A stretch of DNA of 64,000 nt from Flagellimonas pacifica (GTDB lineage Bacteria; Bacteroidota; Bacteroidia; Flavobacteriales; Flavobacteriaceae), in the NCBI RefSeq assembly GCF_900215465.1, contig NZ_OBEH01000002.1:804937-868936 (forward strand), given 5' to 3'. A program made the translations under genes and the position numbers. Below the pieces are notes generated by a model that ran no database searches, had not been told where the DNA came from, and saw only the letters and a list, made by a program, of their open reading frames with translations. Positions 53,639-59,865 of this stretch are shown piece after piece. Position 1 is the stretch's first letter. Each line of letters opens with the position of its first letter.

Positions 53639-54349
53639 ATGAAGATTGTAATTGTTGAAAAGGACCCTAAGTTCTTAAATAGATTAACAAAACTCTTAAA
53701 GAAAGTTTTGCGAAATCCTGATACAATCAAGTTTGCATCAACCGTAGATAGCGCAATCATTCTATTGAAAAATTTTAATCCAGATATTGTATTTATGTGT
53801 TTTTCACTTAAAGACGGTGATGCATTTGATATCTTGAGAAAAGTACCTCATTTGAACTGCAATTTTTTCTTCACCAGCGGTTTCAATGGCAATATGCAAA
53901 CATCACCTGAAAACTTTTCAATGTCATTCTTATTAAGACCTTTTACCCAGGAAAAAATCCTTGCAATCATTAATAGCAAAAAAAATGCTTCTCCAGATTT
54001 AGAATATCCCATATCAACATACAATATTGATAGAAAATTTCTTGTACCAACAGGAAGCGCGCACGTTGCGATTAATACAGAAGAAGTCATTAAATGTGTG
54101 GCTGATGGCAATTACACCTGCTTCTACCTGAAAGACAAGAAACATTTAGTGAACTACCCAATAAAGTATTATGATTCTTTGCTTCACAATAAGGGCTTTT
54201 TTAGAATCAACAGATCTATTTTAATAAACATTGGTCATATAACCGCTATATATAAAAAGGAAGCTGTTTTACTATCTACCAATGAAAAGATTATGGTTTC
54301 GCGTAGAAATAGAAAGAAACTAAAGAAACTTATTGACCATTTATCTTAG
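53639..54349 (+). CDS. LytTR-domain regulator with receiver-like domain lacking the phospho-Asp
   Basis: A 236-residue protein. Residues 1-~118 follow a CheY-like receiver, but where the phospho-accepting Asp should be (PDIVFLD pattern) it reads VFMCF with Cys54; the usual Lys near residue 100 is Arg (LLRPF). Residues ~135-236 are a LytTR DNA-binding domain (ILVNIGHITAIYKKEAVLLSTNEKIMVSRR pattern). It may work without phosphorylation or respond to redox or another signal. No histidine kinase is adjacent. It lies directly upstream of the double-glycine peptide locus. Confidence 0.88.
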   Translation: MKIVIVEKDPKFLNRLTKLLKKVLRNPDTIKFASTVDSAIILLKNFNPDIVFMCFSLKDGDAFDILRKVPHLNCNFFFTSGFNGNMQTSPENFSMSFLLRPFTQEKILAIINSKKNASPDLEYPISTYNIDRKFLVPTGSAHVAINTEEVIKCVADGNYTCFYLKDKKHLVNYPIKYYDSLLHNKGFFRINRSILINIGHITAIYKKEAVLLSTNEKIMVSRRNRKKLKKLIDHLS

Positions 54350-54397: not shown

Positions 54398-54525
54398 ACC
54401 GTTCAACATTTTCATATAGTATTCTATGGACTGAATATCTAACTTAGAATGGATTTATAGTTCCTACCAAGCCAACCTTTCATATTTATTAATGATTTGC
54501 ATAGTCACAAAACACTTGGGTCCTT

Positions 54526-54744
54526 ATGGATTTGAATTGGTATTTCCTATTAAAGAAATTCATGAAGAAGTTTAATTATGGAGTAAACCTTTATGAACTA
54601 GAGTTACAGTCATTAAACCTCCCTTCCTATCCTAGCCTACATTCCGTAACTGAACTATTCAATCGGTTTGATATAGAAAATATAGTACTGGAAGGACCAA
54701 AGACATTAAAACGGGTATCGGACATAAACCTTGAGTGTCCATAA
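54526..54744 (+). pseudogene. Truncated C39/VKOR-type N-terminal domain (stub)
   Basis: A 72-residue frame reading MDLNWYFLL...; residues ~30-65 (LPSYPSLHSVTELFNRFDIENI) match by memory the N-terminal module of C39-like peptidase domains linked to vitamin K epoxide reductase-type proteins ('HPNYPSLLSISDTLDFFGIENL'). The chain stops after SDINLECP, where the family normally continues, so the rest of the gene is missing. Whether the stub is expressed is unknown. A related gene fragment (DINLECP tail) is repeated at 55038-55064. Confidence 0.55.
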
Positions 54745-54754
54745 ATGTTCAAGG
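54720..54754 (+). repeat. 35-bp direct repeat, copy 1
   Basis: Starts GGACATAAACCTTGAG and contains TGTCC, so a GGACA-N11-TGTCC dyad is embedded. Copy 2 is at 55038-55072 with 31 of 35 bases identical by my count. Copy 1 overlaps the end of the C39-like stub, and the ATG of the first peptide follows 27 bases later. Confidence 0.85.
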
Positions 54755-54781
54755 CATACATTATCTTAAATTATTTTACTT

Positions 54782-54973
54782 ATGAAAAAATTAGCAAATC
54801 TTACGGGAGTCAAACTGCTTTCTAAAGCAGCTCAAAAAACAATTAATGGAGGAGGTTGCAATCCCTGTGCGGGAAAACCTCAAGGAGCAAAATGTTATGT
54901 TGGCTGTGATCCAGGCAACGTTGGTAGATGCGACATACTTGGCGGTGGGCCGCCATTCTGTGCTGCATTTTAA
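54782..54973 (+). CDS. Double-glycine leader peptide, six cysteines (peptide 1)
   Basis: A 63-residue peptide. The leader MKKLANLTGVKLLSKAAQKT ends INGG (Gly23-Gly24), the pattern of Bacteroidota double-glycine bacteriocin- or pheromone-like precursors processed by C39 peptidase transporters. The core of ~39 residues has six cysteines (26, 29, 38, 42, 50, 60) and is Gly/Pro-rich, suiting three disulfides or other modification. The ATG is 27 bases after repeat copy 1. No transporter or immunity gene is adjacent. Function unknown. Confidence 0.75.
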   Translation: MKKLANLTGVKLLSKAAQKTINGGGCNPCAGKPQGAKCYVGCDPGNVGRCDILGGGPPFCAAF

Positions 54974-55037
54974 TAACCCTTGAGAGGCTGTCTTACACTA
55001 TATAAATAAATTGTGCATGACTTCTATCTGGTAATGT

Positions 55038-55072
55038 GGACATAAACCTTGAGTGTCCTTAAAGTTTCAGGG
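55038..55072 (+). repeat. 35-bp direct repeat, copy 2
   Basis: Same element as at 54720-54754, lying 32 bases upstream of the second peptide's ATG. In one frame it again encodes DINLECP followed by a stop, like the end of the C39-like stub, so it may be the trace of a duplicated gene end. Confidence 0.85.
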
Positions 55073-55104
55073 TTATTTATATCATATTTCTAAAAAAGTC
55101 AAAA

Positions 55105-55287
55105 ATGAAAAAATTAATGAATCTTGATGGGATCAAAACCCTCAACAAAAAAGAACAGCAAAATATTCTTGGAGGTTCAGACAAATGTCAGCAACTATTT
55201 ATCTCTGCCAATTGTTGTCATCCTTGGTGGACAACCGTATGCGGTTTTCCTGGTGGTGGTTGTTCCAATGGTGTTTGTTATCTCTAA
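55105..55287 (+). CDS. Double-glycine leader peptide, six cysteines (peptide 2)
   Basis: A 60-residue paralogue of peptide 1. The leader MKKLMNLDGIKTLNKKEQQN ends ILGG (Gly23-Gly24), aligning residue for residue with peptide 1. The core of 36 residues has six cysteines (28, 37, 38, 46, 53, 58) including a Cys-Cys pair, with a different spacing from peptide 1. It ends CSNGVCYL. A 15-bp hairpin follows the stop. The shared leader but diverged core suggests diversification after duplication. Confidence 0.75.
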   Translation: MKKLMNLDGIKTLNKKEQQNILGGSDKCQQLFISANCCHPWWTTVCGFPGGGCSNGVCYL

Positions 55288-55302
55288 CAAAAAGTATTAA
55301 CC

Positions 55303-55338
55303 AATAGTAATGACCTCTATTCTGAGGTCATTACTATT
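55303..55338. terminator. Perfect hairpin after the peptide genes
   Basis: AATAGTAATGACCTC / GAGGTCATTACTATT, a 15-bp stem with loop TATTCT. There is no strong T-run after either arm, so it is only a possible terminator, or processing site, between the convergent peptide gene and the acylase. Confidence 0.5.
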
Positions 55339-55409
55339 CCATATACCATTAAATCAGAATAATTCTACTTTTACGTTAGTCTTAGCAACGGTTAAGCAAA
55401 CTCTGAATA

Positions 55410-57885: not shown

Positions 57886-59865
57886 CTATTTATTCATGGA
57901 AAGATGATATTCTTCCAATCCAGATTTAAGCCATTCTTCATAAACATCGATGTCTACATATTGAACGGCATCATTTAGAATTTCCATGTTTGGTGAAAGA
58001 AGTACATAATAAGGTTGTGAAGCGGCATTAAAGTTAATAGTTTGGAAAGTGCCCCATTTTTGTCCGATGGTTTCAATAGCCTTTATTCTACCAGAATCAT
58101 ATTGGAAGTTGAATTTTTCAGAATCGGGAAGTTCCTTTCTGTCATCTACATATAAAGAAATAAGGACATATTCATCCTTAAGTAATGCATAGATTTTTGG
58201 GTCGCTCCAGACATTTTCCTCCATTTTCCTACAGTTAACGCAAGCCCACCCCGTAAAATCCAATAGAATGGGTTTGTTCACCTCTTGCGCATAGGCAACG
58301 CCTTCTTCAAAATCCTTAAAGCAATCCAATCCCAGTGGACAATCGCTTTCAGTTTCGGTTATGCTATAAAAATCCGGTGGAGGAAATCCACTTAACAATT
58401 TCAAACTGGTAAAGTTTAATAAGCCCAAAATCAGATAAATGCTAAAGGCTCCACTTAACAATCCAACAAGTTTTCTAGTTGAAGAAGGTTTCTGTTTTGG
58501 CCCATCATGCGGAAATCTGAAAACTCCAAAAAGATAAAGGGTGGTCAACACAAAAAGAATGATCCATATCCCCAAGAAAATCTCCCTTTTAAAAATACCC
58601 CAATTGCCCACCAAATCGGCATTGGAAAGGAATTTGAAAGCGAGTGCCAATTCCAAAAAACCCAAAACCACTTTTACGGTAGTCATCCAACCTCCGGATT
58701 TAGGCAAAGAGTTCAACCAAGTGGGAAATAATGCAAACAAAGCAAAAGGCAGAGCCAATGCAAAGCCAAAACCTACCATACCAGCCGAGAGGTTCGCGGC
58801 CACATTACCTTCGGCCAGGGTTGTGCTCCCCAACAATCCACCTAAAATAGGGCCTGTACATGAAAATGAAACAATAGCTAAGGTAAGTGCCATAAAAAAT
58901 ATGCCCAGTCCCCCTCCAACTTTAGAAGAAGCGGCATCCATTTTATTAGCCCATGAGCTAGGTAATGTCAACTCGTAGTACCCAAAAAAGGAAAAGGCAA
59001 AAAACACAAAAATGACAAAGAACAGCACATTCAACCAGATATTGGTTGCAATGGTATTCAGTATTTGTGAATCAACAGAATCAAAAACGTGGAAAGGTAA
59101 ACTCAACAAAAAGTATATGAGTACAATAAAAAATCCATACAATATGGCATTTATTATTCCTTTGGATTTTTGCTGAGACTGTTTTGTAAAAAAAGATACG
59201 GTAAGGGGAATCATTGGAAAAACACAAGGAGTCAATAGCGCAATCAACCCTCCCAAAAATCCCAATCCAAAAATCATCCACAGATTGGATTTGTCCTTGG
59301 CACCTTCTAACTCCCCTTGGTTTAGAAGCTCTTTGTTCTTTAAATCCAGTTTTAATGCCCCACTTAAAATCTTGCTGCGTTCATCCAATTTCTGTTCCGA
59401 TGCAACAAAAGCATTGCCATCCAAAGAAATTTGAAACAACTCATCTTTTGGAATACACACTTCTTTGCAAATCTGATAGAACAGGTTCACCGAAATCTGT
59501 TTGATATCAGGTTTTAGCAGTTTTATGCGCTGGGTAAAAATTGCTTCTTTTTTAAAGAAGGTCTCTTCAACCTCAAAGATATCGCTGTATTCCTTTATGG
59601 TTTCACTTTCTTCCGTTTTGCCAATCAGTTCATAGTCTTCACCTACCTTTTCAAAAGTAAACTCGCTTGGTAAAGAACCTCCTTCTGCGGTATATTGGGA
59701 GTATACGTGCCACCCTTCATGAATCTTTCCTTTAAAAACAAGCTCATACTCGATTTCTGATATTTTTTTTACCTCATGACTCCATAAAGCAGGGTCCTTT
59801 TCAGATTGACCTTGCAAAGTCACAGTGAACAAAAAAGTTCCTAAGAGTAGTAACAAATATCTCAT
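57886..59865 (-). CDS. DsbD-type protein-disulfide reductase
   Basis: A 659-residue transmembrane reductase that passes electrons from cytoplasmic thioredoxin to periplasmic proteins. After a signal peptide comes an alpha domain with CKEVCIP near residue 140. The middle has eight transmembrane helices with LTPCVFPMIPL and SFSCTGPILGG, the reactive Cys pair. The C-terminal thioredoxin-like domain has CVNC in WACVNCRKME near 543. The ATG overlaps tilS by four bases, so they are coupled. Confidence 0.93.
   Translation of the reverse strand: MRYLLLLLGTFLFTVTLQGQSEKDPALWSHEVKKISEIEYELVFKGKIHEGWHVYSQYTAEGGSLPSEFTFEKVGEDYELIGKTEESETIKEYSDIFEVEETFFKKEAIFTQRIKLLKPDIKQISVNLFYQICKEVCIPKDELFQISLDGNAFVASEQKLDERSKILSGALKLDLKNKELLNQGELEGAKDKSNLWMIFGLGFLGGLIALLTPCVFPMIPLTVSFFTKQSQQKSKGIINAILYGFFIVLIYFLLSLPFHVFDSVDSQILNTIATNIWLNVLFFVIFVFFAFSFFGYYELTLPSSWANKMDAASSKVGGGLGIFFMALTLAIVSFSCTGPILGGLLGSTTLAEGNVAANLSAGMVGFGFALALPFALFALFPTWLNSLPKSGGWMTTVKVVLGFLELALAFKFLSNADLVGNWGIFKREIFLGIWIILFVLTTLYLFGVFRFPHDGPKQKPSSTRKLVGLLSGAFSIYLILGLLNFTSLKLLSGFPPPDFYSITETESDCPLGLDCFKDFEEGVAYAQEVNKPILLDFTGWACVNCRKMEENVWSDPKIYALLKDEYVLISLYVDDRKELPDSEKFNFQYDSGRIKAIETIGQKWGTFQTINFNAASQPYYVLLSPNMEILNDAVQYVDIDVYEEWLKSGLEEYHLSMNK

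Follow-up and report, generated by a model that had tools for sequence, protein, structure and literature searches.

Peptide Genes and Their Surroundings

Two short open reading frames, P1 (54782–54973, 63 residues) and P2 (55105–55287, 60 residues), are located on the forward strand of the 64 kb stretch of Flagellimonas pacifica DNA analyzed here, the whole of which is called the window. Each encodes a precursor with a 24-residue leader that ends in GG and matches the pattern MKKL..L.G.K.L.K..Q..I.GG, followed by a core with six cysteines, and both have the build of a short precursor with a predicted cleavable GG leader. These are the only ATG-initiated reading frames of 40–110 residues in the window in which an MK...GG leader is followed by at least four cysteines, and no frame of this type was found in 30 triplet-shuffled windows. 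The first-pass annotation of this DNA had described two GG precursors with matched leaders and six cysteines, and both reading frames, the leaders, and the cysteines were confirmed. It had also held that the pair has little sequence in common outside the leader, which is true for the proteins: comparison of the whole precursors within the one genome gave a weak match (E = 0.017 with P1 as the query and 0.008 with P2). With P1 as the query, one additional match was found in the genome (E = 1.05). Three features described below were overlooked in that annotation: the 21-nt repeat with its RNA pseudoknot, the regulator gene of LytTR type, and what remains of a VKOR gene.

The core of P2 follows the pattern C..CC.P.W..C..C.NG.C, which is kept in seven species from three genera, homologues having been found in six species other than this one. 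A lack of homologues in related strains had been named earlier as grounds for abandoning the proposal; this was checked, and homologues are present. For the core of P1, no convincing relative was found in the precursor set that was compared. A search of PDB sequences gave no match for P2 and only weak prothrombin and polyprotein fragments for P1 (best E = 0.13). AlphaFold2 was applied to P2 and one homologue with a mean pLDDT of 44.7, and the model was set aside. The P2-type cores of genomes G021 and G645 are 88% identical in amino acid sequence and the 70 nt of DNA upstream are 80% identical, whereas the leaders are of different types (39% amino acid identity); this one case suggests an exchange between leader and core. 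The almost identical P2-type cores with leaders of different types are those at loci L028 (7676–8000) and L206 (1490–1830), where an exchange of leaders at the GG boundary is possible.

The first gene of the block that contains P1 and P2 encodes a LytTR-type response regulator of 236 residues (53639–54349, forward strand; Pfam LytTR, 4.2e-17), for which Response_reg scores 20.4 bits, below the cutoff of 30.2. In an alignment, the receiver column that we take to be the phospho-acceptor aspartate holds C, S, S, and C in the window, G035, G024, and G076, respectively. The replacement by Cys or Ser is seen in the window and at loci L025, L026, and L073, and the aspartate is kept in the relatives at L194 and L027. 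Because a cysteine occupies this position, the regulator of the window may act without phosphorylation.

Between the regulator and P1 is the remnant of a VKOR-thioredoxin gene (54526–54744, forward strand), which comprises 72 codons of the N-terminal, C39-like part and the frame of which enters pseudoknot 1. Using tblastn, the remnant was found to be 62.7% identical to a 538-residue gene of the congener G035 (E = 1.5e-17) and 57.5% identical to a 539-residue gene of the congener G024 (E = 1.7e-18). It has no Pfam match of its own, and a BLASTP comparison of the 72 residues with the VKOR protein on contig C17 of the same genome and with an N-terminally cut VKOR frame gave no match; the similarity emerged only against the full-length congener genes. 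Recognizable VKOR sequence ends a few codons short of pseudoknot 1, which is intact.

The remnant has the same place in the gene order as the VKOR genes of the congeners. The order is LytTR, VKOR, peptide, exporter, peptide, and HlyD in G024; LytTR, VKOR, and peptide in G035; and LytTR, VKOR remnant, P1, and P2 in the window. The block in G076, which belongs to another genus, consists of LytTR and peptide only. The LytTR orthologue is directly followed by the VKOR gene in G035 and G024, and by the peptide gene in G076. The blocks of the window, G024, and G035 adjoin the same 511-residue gene, which is Mg-chelatase-like by Pfam in the window, and the window block is flanked by Mg-chelatase-like and penicillin-amidase genes. 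A DsbD-type thiol:disulfide interchange gene is located on the reverse strand (57886–59865), 2.6 kb downstream of the peptides. Judged by sequence and gene order, the P1/P2 locus is a reduced descendant of an operon made up of a LytTR gene, a C39-like-VKOR-thioredoxin gene, GG-peptide genes, and a C39 exporter gene, and P1 and P2 are not stray orphans.

Element Upstream of the Peptide Genes

The same 21-mer, GGACATAAACCTTGAGTGTCC, is located ahead of P1 (54720–54740) and ahead of P2 (55038–55058). By chance, 0.00 occurrences would be expected in the window; with up to three mismatches there are two copies in the entire 4.44 Mb genome, both in the window. The congeners G024, G035, and G017 carry the 21-mer exactly or with one or three mismatches, with a GG-peptide gene downstream. 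In this search at three mismatches, the backward control gave matches in 4 of 59 genomes, and the matches in G022 and G040 were discarded because chance matches arise at three mismatches.

At each copy, the sequence can be folded into an H-type pseudoknot of 35 nt on the forward strand. Stem S1 (6 bp) has the sequence GGACAY...RTGTCC, and CCTTGA in its loop pairs with TCARGG further downstream as stem S2 (6 bp). Pseudoknot 1 (54720–54754) has S1 at 54720–54725/54735–54740 and S2 at 54729–54734/54749–54754; pseudoknot 2 (55038–55072) has S1 at 55038–55043/55053–55058 and S2 at 55047–55052/55067–55072. Loop L1 is 3 nt (AAA in both), loop L3 is 8 nt, and 0 nt separate S2 from the second strand of S1. 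The start codon follows after about 27–32 nt at P1 and P2, and the stretch from S2 to the AUG is A/U-rich. A diverged copy, in which the letters of the stems differ, precedes the peptide gene that adjoins the C17 exporter gene of this genome. Searches against Rfam 15 with 54400–55400 of the window (E up to 10) and with six element loci (E up to 1) gave unrelated matches only. The top-ranked listings of the open literature contained no account of the pseudoknot or of a Flavobacteriaceae VKOR-C39 GG-peptide system, which leaves absence from print unproven. As far as found in Rfam 15 and the open literature, the pseudoknot is so far an uncatalogued RNA element.

Nine seeds were aligned first: pairing is seen in 97.2% of 107 cells, and both sides have changed in 5 of 12 pairs; when one strand is slid, pairing is at most 61.7%. 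A covariance model that contained stem 1 only, with stem 2 unmodelled, gave 97 matches from 61 sources, in which 96.6% of the cells pair and two-sided changes are found at 11 of the 12 pairs. The observed pairing was equaled by none of 500 shuffles, and slides gave 31.6–52.0%. For stem 2, 446 of 466 cells pair (95.7%) in 83 distinct non-seed rows (the 97 matches minus 9 seeds and 2 duplicates, with identical rows merged), compared with a shuffled mean of 81.8% and a maximum of 85.0%. All six standard pair types occur among these rows at the stem 2 pair formed by columns 28 and 63.

The first tree-based null was determined for the 65 distinct ungapped cores out of the 97 matches. Two pairs were individually significant, one per stem, and the exact pairs of the structure were 8 of the 11 top-ranked. 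With 146 cores, both partners were found to change on 20 branches for S1 and 14 branches for S2, compared with null maxima of 12 and 10, respectively, in 500 runs. The individually significant pairs were again one per stem (2 of 12), under a strict null and with a short alignment. Rows that came from a set of 178 further matches and from 14 loci were required to have at least five of the six S1 pairs, a selection that favors S1 and not S2. Two interleaved helices with compensatory changes define the H-type pseudoknot, and the alignments show both.

Genes That Follow the Element and Its Distribution

A GG-leader reading frame with an ATG start was found within 60 nt downstream of the pseudoknot in 206 of 219 evaluable contexts; the background at random positions in loci of at least 7 kb was 215 of 4000. 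The median distance from the end of the model to the ATG is 24 nt (interquartile range, 23–26). There were 222 distinct contexts in all, from the 97 matches and the best 150 of the 178 further matches with identical ones merged, and three of these run off the end of the locus. From the remaining 28 of the 178 matches, 25 were checked and a GG reading frame was found in 22 (L110 and L131 being one genome). Exactly six cysteines are present in 111 of the 206 cores and four in 46, and the number is even in 174. Three of the 13 contexts without a GG reading frame have near-GG leaders, and at least two more look like decayed GG peptides. At L085 (2459–2508), a complete pseudoknot is located 51 nt 5′ of a Peptidase_M56 (BlaR1-type) gene, not a GG peptide.

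Using the covariance model at E up to 0.1 and one genome per genus, 26 of the 199 genomes searched in the family gave matches, some of which are weak (best E of 0.03–0.07 in G237, G200, and G114). The 87 matches in the family include 20 in G117 (3.35 Mb), where they are spread around the chromosome from 53 to 3270 kb of contig C1. That genome also has three exporter/VKOR loci with identical C39 domain scores, which suggests a recent duplication. Within the genus, 13 of 71 genomes match (E up to 0.01); the matches in G654 and G028 are weak and no GG reading frame was read there, nor was one in G003. At E up to 0.001 with strict filters, matches were found in 5 of 395 genomes of the class (three of them in the family) and in 6 of 395 genomes of the phylum (four in the family). 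Outside the family, G519, G558, and G841 have one weak match each, with a GG reading frame downstream (L102, L101, and L223). A pattern that fixes parts of both stems was found at 80 or more loci in a scan of named genomes, with Tenacibaculum, Bizionia, Winogradskyella, Polaribacter, Lutibacter, and Aquimarina among the matches listed; a pattern scan of the IMG/VR viral contigs gave 0 matches.

Flanking Signals

Most copies of the pseudoknot have a palindrome (TTCGCGAA, CTCGCGAG, or CTTGCAAG) at positions −17 to −1, which is a candidate for a hairpin (P0) or a DNA site. The best pair of P0 is 86% paired, compared with 70% when shuffled, and the hairpin is missing at both window pseudoknots. 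As a conserved structure, P0 is a weakly supported candidate. No convincing flavobacterial −33/−7 promoter was found upstream of the pseudoknots. In the upstream contexts, neither TAnnTTTG nor TATAAT is enriched, and TAnnTTTC occurs 22 times, relative to a shuffled mean of 15.4 and a maximum of 22. A cluster of TTTG near −34 was considered as a promoter and rejected; by eye these letters look like the arms of upstream hairpins. A sigma-70 scan gave chance level, and a scan with a terminator consensus gave no site.

On the 3′ side of P2 there is a 15-bp hairpin (55303–55338, forward strand) without a long U-run, which is possibly the 3′ end or a stabilizer of the P1–P2 transcript. For 183 peptide cistrons, the 3′ hairpins have a mean MFE of −14.0, compared with −7.0 after shuffling. 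In 98 of the 183 the stem has 7 bp or more, and only 30 of those 98 have a U-run.

Export and Oxidation Genes

A C39 ABC exporter gene is absent from the 64 kb window, and the nearest on that contig is at C7:188 kb. The first-pass annotation had stated that there is no exporter nearby, and all three C39 matches of the genome are indeed outside the window. The genome search for C39 transporters that it proposed identified two exporters. The C39 proteins of the genome are these two exporter frames of 744–746 residues (C17 and C7:188 kb) and one VKOR-linked C39-like protein. On the reverse strand of contig C17, an operon consists of genes for HlyD (C17:36264–37562), the C39 exporter (C17:37569–39803), a six-cysteine peptide bearing the pseudoknot (C17:39848–40069), and VKOR (C17:40187–41782). 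The 531-residue VKOR protein combines the Pfam domains Peptidase_C39, VKOR, and Thioredoxin_4. The C39-like part is without the QxDCGPTC segment that is present in the C39 domain of the exporter and thus probably binds leaders rather than cutting them. The second exporter gene, at C7:188 kb (L007, 6686–14633), is beside an S8 protease gene and a gene that is HlyD-like by eye; split lanthipeptide dehydratase genes (Lant_dehydr_N and Lant_dehydr_C) are present there and the pseudoknot is absent.

P1 and P2 are most likely served by the C17 exporter, since its own precursor carries the pseudoknot and distant copies of the element are ordinary. As the window leaders differ in type from that of the C17 peptide, we infer this export in trans. 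The first-pass annotation had left a choice between a dedicated system elsewhere and an orphan cassette. Each alternative is right in part: VKOR gene and exporter have been lost locally, and the operon on C17 is intact.

Within the family, 64 of the 199 genomes encode a C39 domain, namely, 24 of the 26 with the element and 40 of the 173 without it (p = 8.8e-12). VKOR-type C39 frames (about 500–570 codons, classed by frame length and score) are found in 18 of the former and 6 of the latter (p = 9.6e-15). In a chosen set of element-positive genomes, C39 is present in 24 of 25. Among 92 sources of at least 7.5 kb, window included, an exporter was matched in 52, VKOR in 59, and at least one of the two in 74, counts that are no independent test because nearly all of these sources were selected for carrying the pseudoknot. 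Within 10 kb of the 87 family copies, an exporter C39 is near 46, only a VKOR-type frame is near 6, and neither is near 35, though contig ends may conceal some neighbors.

The first-pass proposal that P1 and P2 are exported, diversifying GG peptides of the disulfide type is supported as a prediction. The P2 core is conserved across the seven species, about 200 related precursors mostly have four or six cysteines, and the genes are linked to C39 exporters and VKOR-thioredoxin genes.

Discussion

In our judgment, P1 and P2 are probably secreted disulfide peptides of a shrinking LytTR/VKOR/exporter locus, with mRNAs that carry a cis-acting H-type pseudoknot and with export through the C17 system. 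The reading frames, the covarying pseudoknot, its strong link to cysteine-rich GG reading frames, the co-occurrence with C39 and VKOR genes, and the synteny were directly observed. From this comparative evidence, we read the pseudoknot as a putative cis-acting 5′-UTR element, by which scattered genes for secreted, disulfide-rich peptides would be united in one regulon. In the mechanism that we propose, P1 and P2 would exit through the C39 exporter and HlyD encoded on C17 with cleavage after GG, and the VKOR-thioredoxin protein would dock on the leaders through its C39-like domain and form the disulfides. The pseudoknot would act in cis on the RNA by protecting the peptide cistron or by gating translation. 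With a pseudoknot at its 5′ end and a hairpin at its 3′ end, a cistron could be protected in, or excised from, a longer transcript, and a translation gate would fit as well; the pseudoknot may alternatively be a riboswitch or a protein-binding site. The dispersed peptide genes would form one coregulated set, with a few exporters serving all. More tentatively, and with somewhat less than even confidence, we suggest that a new class of cis-regulatory RNA defines a peptide regulon of the Flavobacteriaceae, in which peptide synthesis is coupled to the VKOR/C39 machine and which genes join by acquiring a 5′-UTR-leader module. The coupling could be brought about by the pseudoknot alone or by a factor acting in trans.

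The reduced state of the locus might mean that P1 and P2 are a dying leftover and that the peptides are no longer produced. The local VKOR gene is truncated, the exporter is gone, the P0 hairpin has been lost at both window copies, and some copies of the pseudoknot elsewhere sit before decayed reading frames. We nevertheless regard this as unlikely: both reading frames, both leaders, both pseudoknots, and all 12 cysteines are intact, VKOR sequence is recognizable almost up to pseudoknot 1 and the pseudoknot is whole, and the 35 family copies more than 10 kb from any C39 match are in the same situation. It is also doubtful that P1 and P2 are the signals of a LytTR-controlled quorum circuit and not bacteriocins. 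Peptide pheromone systems of Gram-positive bacteria are built from a GG peptide, a C39 exporter, and a LytTR regulator, and the LytTR gene is adjoined by that of a His_kinase protein in G017 and of a TPR protein at L194. However, the window block has no kinase genes at its flanks, and as the window regulator, like those of three relatives, has another residue in place of the receiver aspartate, the pairing of a histidine kinase with a phosphorylatable LytTR protein is not found at the locus. The cores also diversify strongly, unlike a common signal.

A LytTR gene is located a short way 5′ of the element at four loci, those of the window, G035, G024, and G076, which could indicate that the element functions as DNA, either as a LytTR operator or as a site of recombination for the swapping of cores, for which the unlike leaders and similar UTR and cores of G021 and G645 suggest exchange. 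Against this reading, LytTR proteins bind direct repeats. Moreover, the two interleaved stems covary independently, and the distance to the ATG is almost fixed. LytTR matches 16 sources, nine of which are the window or surrounding loci, as opposed to 89 for VKOR and 86 for the exporter (tblastn with the window and loci L001–L195, many of which overlap). A role as DNA rather than RNA is therefore very improbable. Small-molecule riboswitches built as H-type pseudoknots are known, with SAM-V (PMC6061858) and the preQ1 family (PMC11625349) as examples, and the A residues in L1 and L3 of the element are near-invariant. Against such a function, loop 1 is just 3 nt, no expression platform is seen in the A/U-rich stretch before the AUG, the downstream genes encode peptides instead of a single metabolic pathway, and Rfam gave no match even at permissive E-values. 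We thus give the riboswitch only a small chance, and the reading of P1 and P2 as secreted peptides with a cis-acting RNA element is preferred.

Short secreted peptides with diverging cores are difficult to detect in sequence searches, and the pseudoknot provides a genome-wide flag for their genes, with up to 20 matches per genome and even far from exporters. Shine–Dalgarno sequences are hardly used in the phylum Bacteroidota. The element thus raises the question of why the mRNAs of secreted peptides need a pseudoknot about 27 nt 5′ of the start codon where such sequences are rare.

The SAM-II/SAM-V and preQ1 riboswitches are short H-type pseudoknots in 5′-UTRs. The element described here is like them in this respect and differs in the genes controlled, in the 3-nt loop 1, in having no visible expression platform, and in having no match in Rfam 15. 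The leaders of the peptides have a weak likeness to Pfam PF14406 Bacteroid_pep (P2, 13 bits; cutoff of 25) and to NCBIfam NF047798 leader_Chryseo (P1, 10.8 bits; cutoff of 23.5). As described in PMC6671954, the bacteroidetocins are GG-leader peptides of the Bacteroidota with even numbers of cysteines and indicated disulfides, and their region holds a thiol oxidoreductase gene together with a double-glycine-peptidase ABC transporter gene. The region of P1 and P2 does not have an oxidoreductase gene of this kind, as VKOR is present locally as a remnant and intact on C17. By the same description, bacteroidetocins have a 15-residue leader and a mature peptide of 42 residues with four cysteines, whereas P1 and P2 have 24-residue leaders and six cysteines, so that on this comparison by description they are outside the four-cysteine class (PMC6671954). 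The fusion of VKOR, thioredoxin, and a C39-like domain, the LytTR gene, the pseudoknot, and the remote position of the P1/P2 pair relative to its likely exporter are further differences from the bacteroidetocins as that source describes them (PMC6671954). They are nonetheless the nearest system found, and the peptide side of the P1/P2 system is therefore a variation on a described system.
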